Shown: one piece after another, positions 54,126 to 60,843 of the stretch
Numbering within the stretch: position 1 is the first letter of the stretch
How the letters are laid out: each line of letters opens with the position of its first letter
Origin: Senegalimassilia anaerobia JC110
GTDB taxonomy: Bacteria; Actinomycetota; Coriobacteriia; Coriobacteriales; Eggerthellaceae
Length of the DNA stretch: 64,000 nucleotides
Direction: 5' to 3'
Assembly (NCBI RefSeq): GCF_000236865.1
Contig: NZ_HE611015.1
Span: 89,983 to 153,982, forward strand
Translations under genes and position numbers: made by a program
The notes under the pieces: model-generated
The model's database searches: none
What the model was told of the DNA's origin: nothing
Seen by the model: the letters and a program-made list of their open reading frames with translations, nothing else

Positions 54126-54201
54126 CCGGGTATGCGGGTGCAAACCGCGCCTGGTGGTTCTCTGTATCGCGATAGCCCGGGTATGCGGGTGCAAACCGCG
54201 C
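54126..54201. repeat. 25-bp direct repeat, two copies
   Basis: Positions 54126-54150 and 54177-54201 are identical over 25 bp (start CCGGGTATGCGGG, end AACCGCGC), period 51 bp. Each is followed by a TATCGCGA-containing segment. The unit has inner GCGG/CCGC complementarity. Looks like a small REP-type element; no protein is encoded. Confidence 0.8.
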
Positions 54202-54246: not shown

Positions 54247-54292
54247 CGAAACCCAACCGGTAACCGATGGTAACCGGTTGGGTTTCGTTGTC
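54247..54292 (+). terminator. Terminator of the oxidoreductase operon
   Basis: CGAAACCCAACCGGT/ACCGGTTGGGTTTCG, a perfect 15-bp stem with 11-base loop, then TTGTCTT. It lies 180 bp past the gamma gene. Confidence 0.82.
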
Positions 54293-54300
54293 TTCATATG

Positions 54301-54395
54301 TGGCAGCTGTTCTCCTTTCGCTGAGAAGGTTTTGCGTCGTTCGCATGCAGCCGCCTGCCCTTTTCGCCGAAAAGGTTTCGGAATCGTAGCTGCCA
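54301..54395 (+). ncRNA. Candidate structured RNA leader, multi-helix junction
   Basis: TGGCAGCT (54301-54308) pairs perfectly with AGCTGCCA (54388-54395), enclosing three local hairpins: TTCTC/GAGAA (54310-54327), GCAG/CTGC (54347-54358) and CCTTTTC/GAAAAGG (54359-54375, three-base loop). It lies between a terminator and the DUF4352-like gene. I cannot match it to a known riboswitch class. Drawn by hand pairing only. Confidence 0.4.
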
Positions 54396-54413
54396 GCTAA
54401 TGAAATCACAAAG

Positions 54414-54470
54414 CCCTTTCCCTAGCATTTATATCGTTTCAGCACGTCAGTGCATCGTTTAGGGAAAGGG
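54414..54470 (+). promoter_or_regulatory. Inverted repeat that can hide the Shine-Dalgarno of the next gene
   Basis: CCCTTTCCCTA (54414-54424) is the exact complement of TAGGGAAAGGG (54460-54470), which contains the ribosome-binding site of the gene starting at 54478. The 35-base loop itself has a small GCAC/GTGC hairpin. If the transcript starts upstream, this helix would block translation. Confidence 0.6.
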
Positions 54471-54477
54471 AATGCTC

Positions 54478-55227
54478 ATGGAAACCAACACCGTGCAAGC
54501 TGCGCCGGCGCCTCAGCCGTCGAAATCAGGGCTGGGAATCGCCGGCTTCGTTCTGGGGATTATCGCCCTGGCGATATCGTTTCTGCCCATCATCAACAAT
54601 TTCTCGGCTTTGCTCGCCGCTATCGGCTTCGTGCTCGCGCTCATCGGCACGATCGCGTGCTTTAAGGGGAGAAAGTCGGGCAAGGGCCTGTCCGTCGCCG
54701 GCGTGGTGATGAACGTCATCGCATTCGCCGTGGTGCTGGCCACGCAAAGCATGTACAGCTCTGCTATCGATGATGCCTTCTCCGGTACCTCGGTGGCGCC
54801 GCGGCCGGCAACCGAGCAGCCTGCGACCACCGCTCCTGCGTCCGATGACGCTGCCGGTGATTCCCAGGCCGCGGCGGCGGGCAACTCCATTACGCTCAAA
54901 AACGGCCTCGTGCTTACGGTCGACGGCGTGGTCACCGGGCTTCAGAGCTACGATGGAAAGTCGATCACGCAGGTGAGCGTGACCTATCAGAACAACGGCA
55001 ACAGCCAGGCGTCGTTCAATCCCTACGATTGGAAGGCCGAGGATGCCCAGGGTGCCCAGCGCTCGCAAGCGTTTTACACCGATGGCGAGAACGAGCTCAA
55101 TTCCGGCACCCTTGCCGCCGGTGGCTCGGTTTCGGGCAACCTGTACTTCGAAGGCGATGTGGTGAAGGTGCTGTACGAAAACGCCTTTATCGGCTGCGGT
55201 TCGGATGTTTCCTGGAACATCGCCTAA
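54478..55227 (+). CDS. Membrane protein with DUF4190-like N-terminus and DUF4352-like domain
   Basis: Probable exported sensor-like or structural protein of unknown role. ATG at 54478 is seven bases from AAAGGG; ATG 54472 is too close. Of 249 residues, 20-45 and 50-75 plus about 78-92 are hydrophobic segments of a DUF4190-like unit. A disordered Ala/Thr/Pro stretch (about 105-140) leads to an immunoglobulin-like DUF4352 domain (about 140-249). Its mRNA leader can fold as described in the two entries before it, pointing to post-transcriptional control. Confidence 0.78.
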   Translation: METNTVQAAPAPQPSKSGLGIAGFVLGIIALAISFLPIINNFSALLAAIGFVLALIGTIACFKGRKSGKGLSVAGVVMNVIAFAVVLATQSMYSSAIDDAFSGTSVAPRPATEQPATTAPASDDAAGDSQAAAAGNSITLKNGLVLTVDGVVTGLQSYDGKSITQVSVTYQNNGNSQASFNPYDWKAEDAQGAQRSQAFYTDGENELNSGTLAAGGSVSGNLYFEGDVVKVLYENAFIGCGSDVSWNIA

Positions 55228-55345: not shown

Positions 55346-55768
55346 GTGAAAGAACCCATGACCGAGGACCTGCTCAACGAGCTGCTCGATTCGCCTGACC
55401 CTGCCGCTTTCGCCAGCAAGCACAAGCTTGTGTGCCGCAGCCTGCCCGATTATCTTCAGCAGCTGCTCGATGAGCGCGGCTTGAGGCGTCCCGAGGTGGT
55501 GCGCCAGGCGGGCATCAATCCCACGTTCGGGTATCGGATCTTCGTCGGCCAGCGCAATCCTTCACGCAACAAGCTATTGCAGCTGGCCTTCGCTATGAAG
55601 CTGTCGCTGCGCGAGACGAATCGTCTGCTGCAGGCAGGCGGCTGCAACGAGCTATATTGCAAAAACCGCCGCGACGCCATCATTATCTTCTGCATCAACC
55701 ATGGTGAAACGCTGCAAACCGCCGATGAGCAGCTGTACGCCTTCCACGAGGACACCATCACCGAGTAG
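55346..55768 (+). CDS. Helix-turn-helix protein beside a broken kinase gene
   Basis: 140 residues from GTG 55346 (GAAGGAAG six bases upstream); ATG 55358 is an alternative. Residues about 30-95 form an XRE-like helix-turn-helix (LPDYLQQLLDERGLRRPEVVRQAGINPTFGYRIFVGQRNPSR). The C-terminal part is helical and ends in acidic residues. A pair of this HTH protein with a serine/threonine kinase is what I would expect in relatives; here the kinase gene just downstream is truncated. DNA or protein target unknown. Confidence 0.8.
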   Translation: MKEPMTEDLLNELLDSPDPAAFASKHKLVCRSLPDYLQQLLDERGLRRPEVVRQAGINPTFGYRIFVGQRNPSRNKLLQLAFAMKLSLRETNRLLQAGGCNELYCKNRRDAIIIFCINHGETLQTADEQLYAFHEDTITE

Positions 55769-55858: not shown

Positions 55859-56745
55859 ATGAATGAATCCCTCCAACAACATCTTGAATGCCTTGCGCGC
55901 GATGAGTGCTATCGCGTTGATGCGGTATTGAAGGAAGGACGTCTCGAGCGCATGGGGTTCCTCAATCGGTGCGCGATGTGGTTGCCCAGGCGACGGCGTT
56001 CGACCCTGCCGATCGGTTCGGGTCGGTGGGAGCGATGCGCGCGGCGTTCATGTACGCGGTCGGGTGCCCCGTCGATTTTCGAAAGGGGTCTCTCGCTGCT
56101 GATACGGGTTGTGCGCGGGGCGCTGGCGATATTTGGCGTGGCGATTCGGCTTCCGAAGCAGGTTGTGCGCAAGATCCCGGATTCCAGCCTGGTCTCCGAA
56201 TGGATGGCGCTTTACGGCCCGGCAGCGTTGGGCATGCCGCTGATTCCGATCTCGCCGGCGTCACGCCTGGTGCGGCAGAGCCGGCTTTGTCGTCTGCAGT
56301 GCCTGGTGCATCAACGTTGCGTGATGCCAAAAAGCGGGGAAGATCCGAGGCTTTTGCGCATGGCGCAAAAGTCGCCTTTCGATGGCTGTGGGAGTTTTGG
56401 TCCGGCATCGCGCACCGCTTGCCTTTGGGCGTTGGCGTGGCGTGGGATATCCTGCTGGCCGCCTGGGGCGCGGTCATGGCCTTCGCGTGCGTTGCCTCCG
56501 GCATGAACCCGCAAGGGGACATGGCTCGTTTGCCTGCGGTCGCTTGCGCGGTATCGTATGTGTGCGTGTGGCTGGTCATGGACTGTCCGATCCCGTTGCT
56601 CGTCGACACTCGGCCGATCGAGAAGCTGTTTCCGTTGCTTGAGCGGCCTTCGCTCAAGCAACGGGTGGTCGCGGCAGCGGGCATGGCGGGTGTCGCCTTC
56701 GCCGTGCTCACGCTGATAGGTATCCTGTTTCTGCGTGAATCCTAG
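55859..56745 (+). pseudogene. Serine/threonine protein kinase gene with internal deletion and frameshift
   Basis: The frame starting at 55859 encodes an N-terminus (MNESLQQHLECLARDECYRV) like that of membrane protein kinases. After about 30 residues the reading frame shifts. In the new frame GVPQSVRDVVAQATAFDPADRFGS (from 55954, no start of its own) matches the last part of a kinase C-lobe. The whole core between (glycine loop, catalytic HRD, DFG) is missing. The remainder holds a long linker and two to three transmembrane segments near the end, intact to the stop. The product cannot be an active kinase. Confidence 0.75.
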
Positions 56746-56848: not shown

Positions 56849-56945
56849 GGAGATGGATGGGTCCTGGTGGGCCCCGCGGCCTTCAAAGCCGTTGTGAGGC
56901 GCGCAGAACGTCTCGGGTGTGTTCGATTCGCACGCGTCTCCGCCA
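56849..56945 (+). tRNA. selC: tRNA-Sec (TCA)
   Basis: The 97-nt tRNA for selenocysteine. It has the six-pair D-stem GGGTCC/GGGCCC, anticodon loop CTTCAAA with TCA, long variable arm GAGGCG/CGTCTC, T-arm with TTCGATT loop, and encoded CCA. Acceptor GGAGATGG/GCGTCTCC pairs over seven positions with a G-T pair at six and a G-G mismatch at the eighth. SelA, SelB and SelD act on it. Confidence 0.93.
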
Positions 56946-57186: not shown

Positions 57187-59121
57187 CTAGCTTGCCAACT
57201 CGCGTGCGTCGCCGACGCGGCGCGTGATGCCCGTATCGTCGAAGTGCTCGAGTACGGGGATGGCGTGCTTGCGGCTCAGGCCCATGGCGTCTTTGAGGTC
57301 GGCAGCGGAAGCGGGGCCGTTGGCCAATGCGGTTCGTACGGCCTGCTCGAGTGCGGCAAGCGCGGTGGCGTCGAAATAAAATTCCTCGCTGGCTTTGACG
57401 GCCCGGCCTTGCTTCTCCAGCAGCCCGAGCGCCTTGTAACCCTGCTTCGGTGCCAGATCTGCTTGCTTGAGCAGGTCGGCAACCGTAGGTGGTTTCGAGC
57501 CAACCGTAGCTAGCAGCTCGGCCAGCTTTTCGGCATTGTCTTCCTCTAGCTTCCGGGCGCCGGCGCCGGCTTGCGGGTGGCTTATCATGCCACCATCGGC
57601 CACGGCTTTGCCTTCCGCGCATGCGCGTGCAAGCACCGCATCGAAGGCGTCGGGCGCGCAGCGGGGCATGCAGGCTTGGCGCAGCGCCTCTTTCGACATG
57701 CCGGTTGCGGCGGGGTTTGCGCTATGGAAGCGAAGCAGCGTGTTCTCGATCGCCCCCGAAAGCTTCTGCAGCATACGTTTGGTTGCGAACCGCATGTTCG
57801 CGCCCGCGGCCCCGGGCAGCATCTCGGCGGTGCCGCGCTCGGCGAGCGCTTCAAGCTCATCTGCAGTTTGCGCAGGGGAAAGCCCGGTTGCATGGGCGAT
57901 ATCGGCGGGCGTTGCAGGGAACTCGGCGGCATCGAAAGCGGCTTGGACCGCCTTTGCGCCATCGCCCGAGCGAAGCGCGTCGAGCAGCGTGCGGTCCGCC
58001 TGGGTTACCGTGGTGGTTCGCTTCGGGTGGGCGCGCAGCACTACGCCGCCGCCGATCACGTGCACGGGGGAGTATGAGCGAATGACGAATCGGTCACCGT
58101 ATGCAACCGGTAGGTCGCACTCCGTACGAATCTGCGCTGCAGCCGTTTGACCTCGCGAGACGCTTTTCACATCATCCATGAGCAGCACGCGCCCGATGCA
58201 TTCCGTGGTGCCGTGGGCAACATGCACGCGGCAACCGGTTTCCAGCGGCTTGTCCTGGTCGGGCAGGCCCAGGTAGGTGATGTCGACGTCGAAGTGGTCG
58301 GTGGGGGTGACGGCGTCGGGGGTGCAGATGAAGCTTCCCGGCCGCACGTCGTCGGTGGTCACGGCGTTCAGGTTCAGCGCGGTGCGGTGCCCTGACGAGG
58401 CCTGCTCGACCGCCTGCCCATGCACCTGGATGCCGCGGATGCGCGTGCGCAGGCCCAAGGGCAGCACCTCTACCTCGTCGCCGACATGCGCGATGCCGCT
58501 CCACAGCGTGCCCGTGACAACGGTCCCCGCTCCTTTGATGGTGAAGCTGCGGTCCACGGGCAGGCGCATTGCCTCCTGCTCGGCGCGGCCGGCGGTGCCG
58601 CGGGCCGCAAGCTGTATGGCTTCCCGCAGCTTGTCCAGGCCCTGTCCGGTTCGGGCGGAAACGGGAACGATCGCGGCCGTCGCATATGGCGTGCCGGCCA
58701 GGCGCGTGCGCACCTCGTCCTCCATGAACAGCGCCCATTCCTCGTCCACCAGGTCACATTTCGTCAACGCCACCACGCAGGTCGGCACGGCCAGAAGCTG
58801 CAGCACCGCCAAATGCTCCTCGGTTTGCGGCATGATGCCGTCATCGGCGGCGATGCACAGAAGCGCCACGTCGATGCCGGTGGAGCCCGCGATCATCTGG
58901 CGCACGAAGCGCTCGTGGCCCGGCACGTCGACCACGCCCATGGCGCTTCCGTCGGGCAGCTCAAGCTGGGCAAAGCCGAGCTCGATCGTGATGCCGCGCT
59001 GCTTCTCCTCGCTTAACCTGTCAGGGTCGGTGCCGGTGAGCGCCTGGACCAAGGTGGATTTACCGTGGTCGATGTGGCCGGCGGTTCCGAGCACCAGGTC
59101 TCGTTTCGATTCGGTTGTCAT
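57187..59121 (-). CDS. selB: Selenocysteine-specific translation elongation factor SelB
   Basis: GTPase that brings Sec-tRNA to UGA codons next to a SECIS hairpin. The 644 residues have GTP motifs GTAGHIDHGKST (12-23), the DVPGHE box near 65, TKCD near 120, domains II and III, then four winged-helix-like repeats (about 380-644) that bind the SECIS. The gene is co-directional and 6 bp from selA. Confidence 0.96.
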   Translation of the reverse strand: MTTESKRDLVLGTAGHIDHGKSTLVQALTGTDPDRLSEEKQRGITIELGFAQLELPDGSAMGVVDVPGHERFVRQMIAGSTGIDVALLCIAADDGIMPQTEEHLAVLQLLAVPTCVVALTKCDLVDEEWALFMEDEVRTRLAGTPYATAAIVPVSARTGQGLDKLREAIQLAARGTAGRAEQEAMRLPVDRSFTIKGAGTVVTGTLWSGIAHVGDEVEVLPLGLRTRIRGIQVHGQAVEQASSGHRTALNLNAVTTDDVRPGSFICTPDAVTPTDHFDVDITYLGLPDQDKPLETGCRVHVAHGTTECIGRVLLMDDVKSVSRGQTAAAQIRTECDLPVAYGDRFVIRSYSPVHVIGGGVVLRAHPKRTTTVTQADRTLLDALRSGDGAKAVQAAFDAAEFPATPADIAHATGLSPAQTADELEALAERGTAEMLPGAAGANMRFATKRMLQKLSGAIENTLLRFHSANPAATGMSKEALRQACMPRCAPDAFDAVLARACAEGKAVADGGMISHPQAGAGARKLEEDNAEKLAELLATVGSKPPTVADLLKQADLAPKQGYKALGLLEKQGRAVKASEEFYFDATALAALEQAVRTALANGPASAADLKDAMGLSRKHAIPVLEHFDDTGITRRVGDARELAS

Positions 59122-59127
59122 AGCGCG

Positions 59128-60591
59128 CTACGACTCCTTTCGCCCTTCGAAGGCCGCGAAATAGCTGGCCACGGCGCAGGCGATCTCGGGGATGTCCTCT
59201 TCGGTGATGGTGCGCGCATCGAACAGCACGCATTCTCGCTTGATGCGCCCGATCACGGGCACGTCGCGGTTGCGCTGGAGGTGCTCCTCGCAGCCTTGCG
59301 CGTTGCCGGCCTCGAAGCGCATGCGCACGCAGAACGTGGGGATGTCGCACATGGGAAGCGATCCTCCGCCGGCGCGCCCCGTCTCCTCCACGATCTCCAG
59401 GTGCGCTTGGCCGGGCGTCACGCGCTCGGCCAGGGCCGCCATCAGCGCTTCGGCGCGTTCGCGCACCGTTTCGACATCCTCGGTGAGCATGCGCAGGGTG
59501 GGGATGCGGCGAAGCGCATCTTCGGGGTCCAGATATAGGCGCAGCGTGGCTTCCAAAGCGGCCAGCGTCATCTTGTCCAGGCGCAGCGCACGGGCCAGCG
59601 GATGCTTTTTCAGGCGGTCGATATAGTCCTTGCGGCCTACTACGATGCCTGCCTGAGGGCCGCCGAGCAGTTTATCGCCCGAGAAGCTGACCAGGTCGCA
59701 TCCTTCGGCAAGCGATTCGCGCACCGTGGGCTCGGCGTATTCGCCGAACACATCCAGGTGCATGAAGGCGCCCGAGCCCTGATCCTCGTAGACGAGCAGC
59801 TCGGGGCGATCTTCGCCCGCGGTGGCGCGTCGGGCGTTCTCTTCGTCGGCGATGTGGCGAAGGTCGGTCTTCGAGACGCTTTCGGTGAAGCCGATCATGC
59901 GGTAGTTGGAGGGGTGCACCTTGAGCAGCATGGCCGTATCCGGCGAAATGGCGCGCTCGTAGTCGGAGGCGTGCGTCTTGTTCGTGGCGCCCACCTCCAC
60001 CATGCGCGCGTTCGACTGCGCCATGATGTCGGGCACGCGGAAGCTGCCGCCGATCTCTACGAGCTCGCCTCGGCTGACGATGGCTTCGTGGCCGGCGGCG
60101 AACTCGGCGAGCACCATCATGACGGCTGCCGCGTTGTTGTTCACGGCGATGGCGGCCTCGGCGCCGGTAAGCGCGCAGATGAGGTGTTCCACATGGTCGT
60201 GGCGGCTGCCGCGCGCCATGTTCTCGATGCTGTATTCGAGCGTGGAGTAGCCGCGCGCGGCTTCCACCACTGCCTGTACCGCGGGCTCTGCCAGCACGCT
60301 GCGGCCAAGGTTGGTGTGGATGATCACGCCGGTTGCGTTGATGACGCGCCTGAGGCTCGGGCGCAGCGTGGCCAGCGCGCCGTTGACGGCATCGGTCAAG
60401 ATTGCCTCGACGTCGACCGCGTCCACTGTTCCCGCCAAGATGAGCTGGCGCTGCCCGTCTACCGCCGCACGGGCGCGGTCGACGAGCATGGAACGGGGGA
60501 CGATGGCCTCGAGCGCCTTCATGGGAGCGGCTTGCATCAGCTCTTCGACCTGGGGTAATGCGCGTAAAAGGTCGGTGCGTGGTTCGGGCAT
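59128..60591 (-). CDS. selA: L-seryl-tRNA(Sec) selenium transferase SelA
   Basis: PLP enzyme that converts Ser-tRNA(Sec) to Sec-tRNA(Sec) with selenophosphate. ATG at 60591 follows AGAGGA; the open frame goes farther back but not in a coding-like way. The 487 residues have INATGVIIHTNLGRS near 85, VNNNAAAVMMVLA near 130 and the PLP lysine in SFSGDKLLGGPQAG near 298. First gene of selA-selB. Confidence 0.96.
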   Translation of the reverse strand: MPEPRTDLLRALPQVEELMQAAPMKALEAIVPRSMLVDRARAAVDGQRQLILAGTVDAVDVEAILTDAVNGALATLRPSLRRVINATGVIIHTNLGRSVLAEPAVQAVVEAARGYSTLEYSIENMARGSRHDHVEHLICALTGAEAAIAVNNNAAAVMMVLAEFAAGHEAIVSRGELVEIGGSFRVPDIMAQSNARMVEVGATNKTHASDYERAISPDTAMLLKVHPSNYRMIGFTESVSKTDLRHIADEENARRATAGEDRPELLVYEDQGSGAFMHLDVFGEYAEPTVRESLAEGCDLVSFSGDKLLGGPQAGIVVGRKDYIDRLKKHPLARALRLDKMTLAALEATLRLYLDPEDALRRIPTLRMLTEDVETVRERAEALMAALAERVTPGQAHLEIVEETGRAGGGSLPMCDIPTFCVRMRFEAGNAQGCEEHLQRNRDVPVIGRIKRECVLFDARTITEEDIPEIACAVASYFAAFEGRKES

Positions 60592-60618
60592 GGGTCCTCT
60601 TTCCCTATTGCGTGCAAC

Positions 60619-60640
60619 GCCGCCCTGTATGCAGGGCGGC
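60619..60640 (-). promoter_or_regulatory. Hairpin in the selA leader
   Basis: On the minus strand GCCGCCCTG-CATA-CAGGGCGGC, nine pairs with a tetraloop, ends 27 bases before the selA start. In E. coli a SECIS-like hairpin in the selAB leader binds SelB; whether this one does is only a guess. Confidence 0.4.
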
Positions 60641-60843
60641 GCGGGTTTTCCGTAGCTCAATATAGCAGGCAAGCCCCCAACGCCTCGGGGCAAGGCGGCG
60701 AGTGCGCCAAATGTCCGGCAAATGCTATCGCAGGCGGGTCAATTCGCGCCGTTCGCGCCAATGAGGACGTTTCATGCTCGTAGCCATGCAAGAATTACCG
60801 TGTTTTTCCTAAAGGCGAGAAAACGCGAACAGGGGAGGTTTTC

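Follow-up and report, generated by a model that had tools for sequence, protein, structure and literature searches.

A predicted promoter with a palindromic operator, and a possible read-through lock, ahead of a DUF4352 gene in Senegalimassilia anaerobia

How is the DUF4352 gene in the window analysed here, a stretch of 64,000 nucleotides of Senegalimassilia anaerobia JC110, controlled, and does the DNA ahead of it work as a folded RNA or as a promoter? A preliminary description had placed in this region, downstream of a terminator, a riboswitch-like mRNA leader in which an outer helix enclosing three hairpins is followed by a helix that hides the Shine-Dalgarno (SD) sequence. That the region is a cis-regulatory element for the DUF4352 gene agrees with our results; that it is a leader of the riboswitch type does not, there being no Rfam match and no conserved outer helix or junction. 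As a whole, a regulated promoter combining an XRE-bound palindrome with a read-through lock is to our mind a fairly probable explanation, and one to be preferred over a riboswitch. The features on which the argument turns are as follows.

54247-54287, forward strand: terminator-like hairpin with 19-nt arms (95% complementary), after the upstream POR gene
54301-54387, forward strand: stretch of the formerly proposed outer helix and junction; one imperfect hairpin, not kept in relatives
54388-54402, no strand assigned: operator AGCTGCCAGCTAATG, conserved DNA, with the core palindrome AGCTGCCAGCT at 54388-54398
54400-54405, forward strand: hexamer ATGAAA, assigned to -35 by means of the aligned sites and separated from the -10 box by 17 nt
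54414-54424, forward strand: anti-SD arm CCCTTTCCCTA, overlapping the spacer and the -10 box, predicted only in RNA that starts upstream
54423-54428, forward strand: predicted -10 box TAGCAT (family consensus TAnnAT), with a predicted start at about 54433-54436
54460-54470, forward strand: SD arm TAGGGAAAGGG of the inverted repeat (ribosome-binding site)
54478-55227, forward strand: target gene, encoding N-terminal membrane segments and a DUF4352 domain (PF11611, E 5e-11)

The target gene most likely begins at the ATG at 54478 (METNTV...); the ATG at 54472 is disfavoured because it would touch the SD.

The terminator and the two 8-bp arms of the outer helix (TGGCAGCT, 54301-54308, and AGCTGCCA, 54388-54395) are present as the preliminary description had them, and the hairpin at 54247-54287 folds with a 13-bp stem (z -4.9) and a weak T-rich tail on its 3' side. 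Instead of three hairpins, 54301-54395 forms a single one, long and imperfect, that carries two small loops at its end (z -2.84, 2 of 200 shuffles). In two other genomes of the same genus, G001 and G002, similarity to the leader begins only at about 54362 and 54382, respectively; nothing upstream of these positions is conserved, both genomes lack the junction and the 5' arm of the outer helix, and in G001 their place is occupied by the terminator-like hairpin of the preceding gene. Since nothing upstream of about 54362-54382 is kept in these two genomes, the outer helix and junction lack comparative support, and the outer helix was rejected as a conserved RNA; its 3' arm is part of the DNA palindrome at 54388-54398. 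Apart from short chance matches, the leader has no further copies in its own genome, and an Rfam scan of the window returned only tRNAs and tRNA-Sec, with no match at gathering score near the leader. Short repeats also occur in this part of the window: two identical 25-nt copies of CCGGGTATGCGGGTGCAAACCGCGC (54126-54150 and 54177-54201, 51 bp apart) sit downstream of the POR operon and ahead of the terminator-like hairpin, and two similar 17-nt hairpin-forming copies of TTTCGCyGArAAGGTTT (54316-54332 and 54362-54378) fall in the unconserved stretch upstream of the operator.

The block that relatives do conserve consists of the palindrome AGCTGnCAGCTAATG (54388-54402), exactly 20 nt, and then TAnnnT (here TAGCAT, 54423-54428); in some relatives the operator shows the fuller symmetry TTTCATTAGCTnnnAGCTAATGAAA. 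To keep the search from presupposing its result, exact palindromes (n=87) were gathered across the family without requiring a downstream box. TAnnnT lies at offset 20 in 61 of these and at any other offset in no more than five (the maximum being at 21), while in the opposite orientation of the same palindromes the box is mostly absent. The spacer between palindrome and box is nearly free in sequence except for its pyrimidine-rich end, and downstream of the box nothing is strongly conserved. In two genomes (G091 and G154), a single palindrome flanked by two boxes, one per side, serves a pair of divergent genes. Strand symmetry and use in both directions mark such a site as a DNA operator and not an RNA fold.

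The predicted start (54433-54436) is about 42 bp downstream of the palindrome centre at 54393. As in class II promoters, where the operator is centred near -41/-42 at a fixed distance from the -10 box (here in 61 of 87 cases), the -35 hexamer is poor (ATGAAA or ATGTTT); the ATGAAA at 54400-54405 overlaps the operator and matches TTGACA badly. A generic sigma-70 scan found no promoter at this site because both hexamers are weak. Judged from the aligned sequences, the region is very probably a promoter whose operator has its centre near -42, the start site being a prediction. Such a start, if correctly predicted, lies downstream of 54424, a position that the preliminary description had itself named as incompatible with its leader. 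Some intergenic regions carry two or three palindromes about 54-60 bp apart (G139:C17:1361-1597 and G118:C1:826352-826479), which suggests cooperative binding.

The exact pattern is present in 54 of 138 family genomes (none for a reversed-pattern control). A search of the order Coriobacteriales that tolerated one mismatch found it in 184 of 395 genomes (one for the reversed control). Outside the order, but within the same phylum, it matched in a single one of 110 sampled genomes, and this match looks like chance. In the literature, whose coverage was incomplete, we found no description of the operator, of an XRE-kinase pair or of the locus, and nothing relevant on DUF4352 or an XRE-kinase regulon in Coriobacteriia.

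Which protein might bind the palindrome? Two further features lie downstream of the target gene.

55361-55768, forward strand: XRE/lambda-repressor-like helix-turn-helix (HTH) gene, the proposed regulator; its N terminus is probably somewhat further upstream
55859-56745, forward strand: remnant of a kinase gene after the XRE gene, with the catalytic core missing

The XRE gene is immediately downstream of the DUF4352 gene. Its product has a weak HTH_31 match (Pfam HTH below the curated cut-off) and received no specific family name from Pfam, NCBIfam, PHROGs or PADLOC. The structure model (pLDDT 90.5) has the five-helix HTH domain of XRE regulators in a lambda-repressor-like form with extra helices, and matches C.AhdI, DdrO, P22 c2 and SinR with Z of about 9-10 over residues 25-95. 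The Deinococcus XRE repressor DdrO is among the best neighbours of this domain in both sequence and structure; it differs in that the good alignment is confined to the HTH domain (about 67 residues) and in belonging to another lineage and another locus. In relatives, the gene after the XRE gene is usually a protein kinase (Pkinase, PF00069). In the window, 55859-56745 retains only start-like and end-like kinase pieces in different frames, and no kinase profile matches. With its kinase gene broken, the species may therefore have retained the XRE gene and the operator but not the kinase. PADLOC matches of the kinase to PD-T4-6 and Stk2 are broad kinase matches and were rejected as evidence for defence. 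Directly downstream of the module lies a selenocysteine locus (tRNA-Sec at 56849-56941, and selB- and selA-like genes; range 57187-60693), and a selB-like gene also adjoins the module in G001 and G002.

An XRE homologue lies at most 3 kb from 55 of the 61 operator sites, where chance would give about 0.3% per site. Sites were found in 88 of 108 genomes with an XRE gene and in 3 of 30 without one (Fisher p 6e-13, tallied by hand from the lists of XRE homologues and operator sites). The site also stays constant while the neighbouring target varies between DUF4352, Ltp lipoprotein and DUF5067. Because of this co-location, co-occurrence and constancy, together with the HTH model, the XRE protein probably binds the palindrome. 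The same promoter could instead answer to another regulator encoded elsewhere, with the XRE gene a mere neighbour under shared control: association is not binding, site and gene could co-occur through one common locus, and 6 of the 61 sites have no XRE homologue within 3 kb (several of them in fragmented assemblies, on contigs other than that of the XRE gene). We consider this quite unlikely, as the co-localisation extends across other families of the order (an XRE homologue within about 1.5 kb at 19 of 33 further loci), the site is unchanged when the target gene changes, and five genomes (G117, G118, G137, G090 and G091) have the site at the XRE gene itself. If the XRE protein is the binder, the sign of its action has to be read from geometry, which is the sole basis for preferring activation: with the palindrome about 42 bp upstream of the predicted start and overlapping a poor -35, activation is rather likely. 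A repressor that blocks the -35 region until a signal lifts it, for example via the neighbouring kinase, would fit a palindrome that covers the -35 position, as well as the presence of the site at the XRE gene itself; repression is also the main known activity of many XRE proteins, among them DdrO and P22 c2, which resemble this one in structure. The poor hexamer, the rigid distance from operator to -10 box and the centre near -42 are nevertheless typical of class II activation, and we regard repression as rather unlikely.

Class II activation by lambda-repressor-like proteins is familiar from lambda cI at OR2/PRM and from restriction-modification controller proteins such as C.AhdI. These belong to the same HTH superfamily as the XRE protein and share with the present site a palindrome near -42 over a weak -35; the XRE proteins here form a family apart, have additional helices at both the N and the C terminus and are linked to a kinase gene, and their activating role is a prediction. 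In the mechanism that we propose, the palindrome at 54388-54402 would be bound by an XRE-type HTH protein, dimeric and most likely encoded by 55361-55768, and this protein would probably activate transcription from the -10 box TAGCAT, as expected of an activator in the class II position, yielding a transcript with a short leader that would start near 54435.

The second half of the preliminary description held up better than the first: the 11-bp perfect inverted repeat at 54414-54424 and 54460-54470 is real, its 3' arm is the SD, and it exceeds chance (0 of 3000 shuffles; hairpin z -5.2). The pairing that was expected to be conserved in relatives recurs for the SD helix, where different sequences pair, and not for the outer helix. 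Because the 5' arm overlaps the predicted -10 box, the helix would form only in read-through RNA. Such RNA would carry the anti-SD arm, pair it with the SD and block translation, whereas RNA begun at the gene's own promoter would lack the arm and be translated from an open SD. For the window, the SD has a computed unpaired probability of 0.00 in the read-through RNA against 0.57 from the predicted start, figures that, like all the folding values, disregard ribosomes and cotranscriptional folding. The corresponding means are 0.33 for own read-through RNAs, 0.63 from the predicted start and 0.43 for chimeras; the last value indicates that RNA length alone explains part of the difference, so that the locus-specific effect is the one to be trusted.

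That effect appears in several comparisons. Own arms pair at -15.2 kcal/mol, against -12.0 kcal/mol when arms are permuted between loci (0 of 2000 permutations). At the genus level, with module loci only and grouped by genus, own sequences score 0.585 and cross-genus chimeras 0.430 (21 of 29 genera positive, p 0.0008), and own spacers reach 0.63 against 0.50 when the surroundings of spacer and box are shuffled. The positions that pair with the SD in relatives peak between -19 and -4 from the predicted start, with no excess after +1. An initial cluster test of SD pairing, in which single linkage lumped many genera and sites outside the module were included, gave no significant result (17 of 35 clusters positive, p 0.49), and 8 of the 29 genera show no excess pairing; the lock is for these reasons a trend and not a rule. 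We put a functional read-through lock, statistically supported though not universal and with the translation block deduced from pairing, at about an even chance.

The repeat might alternatively be a by-product, in which a pyrimidine-rich sequence before the -10 box happens to complement purine-rich SDs. The spacer does end pyrimidine-rich and some genera lack excess pairing, so this account comes only somewhat short of being evenly likely; pairing is weaker, however, in cross-genus chimeras and in composition-preserving shuffles of the spacer, and different genera pair different sequences (ATCCTCTCTT with AAGAGAGGAT at L039, CCCTTCTTC with GAAGAAGGG at L032). The same helix is what a riboswitch would offer as an SD-occluding expression platform: an 11-bp anti-SD/SD pairing that recurs in relatives, here below a stretch, 54301-54395, that folds at z -2.84. 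The corresponding reading, in which a long RNA from upstream of 54301 senses a ligand or factor through a junction controlling the SD helix, shares SD sequestration with translational riboswitches but has neither a conserved aptamer or junction nor an Rfam match. Conserved aptamer sequence or helices upstream of the platform were not found (54301 to about 54361 is missing from both same-genus genomes), the conserved bases are those of a palindrome that works in both directions, and the 20-nt spacer that leads from the palindrome to TAnnnT is fixed in length though its sequence is largely unconserved. We therefore consider a riboswitch or factor-sensing leader highly improbable.

The read-through lock has a precedent in phage T4. 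In gene e (lysozyme) and I-TevI, the SD is hidden in a longer RNA initiated upstream. The structure that hides it has the proximal promoter within its 5' strand, so that the gene's own transcripts lack this strand and are translated (PMC3014915, PMC2988022). The logic is the same as that proposed here, with the promoter inside the 5' strand. The T4 cases concern phage late promoters within long phage transcripts, whereas the promoter proposed here is on a bacterial chromosome and has a palindromic operator; unlike in T4, the present lock is predicted from sequence and recurs in many genera with different arm sequences.

Overall, these results remove a false riboswitch candidate. For gut bacteria of an order with little-studied regulators they supply a compact regulatory rule, AGCTnnnAGCTAATG-N20-TAnnAT, and they link a hitherto unassigned pair of XRE and kinase genes to specific targets. 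They also suggest that bacterial chromosomes use a T4-style trick by which messages from the gene's own promoter alone are translated. In G002 (L149, 6469-7080), the same operator stands over an Ltp-type lipoprotein (PF07553, E 1.5e-52) instead of DUF4352, and Ltp is a superinfection-exclusion family (PMC3952083). A wider reading is tentative and open to considerable doubt: an order-wide Coriobacteriales switch in which XRE protein and kinase would control envelope proteins through the -42 palindrome, with a T4-like read-through lock. Its envelope targets, no less tentatively, might be DUF4352, Ltp-type or DUF5067 lipoproteins. Were such a switch to exist, the target would stay silent unless the switch fires, and, in view of the Ltp link (PMC3952083), it might serve among other roles as an inducible surface defence against phage.
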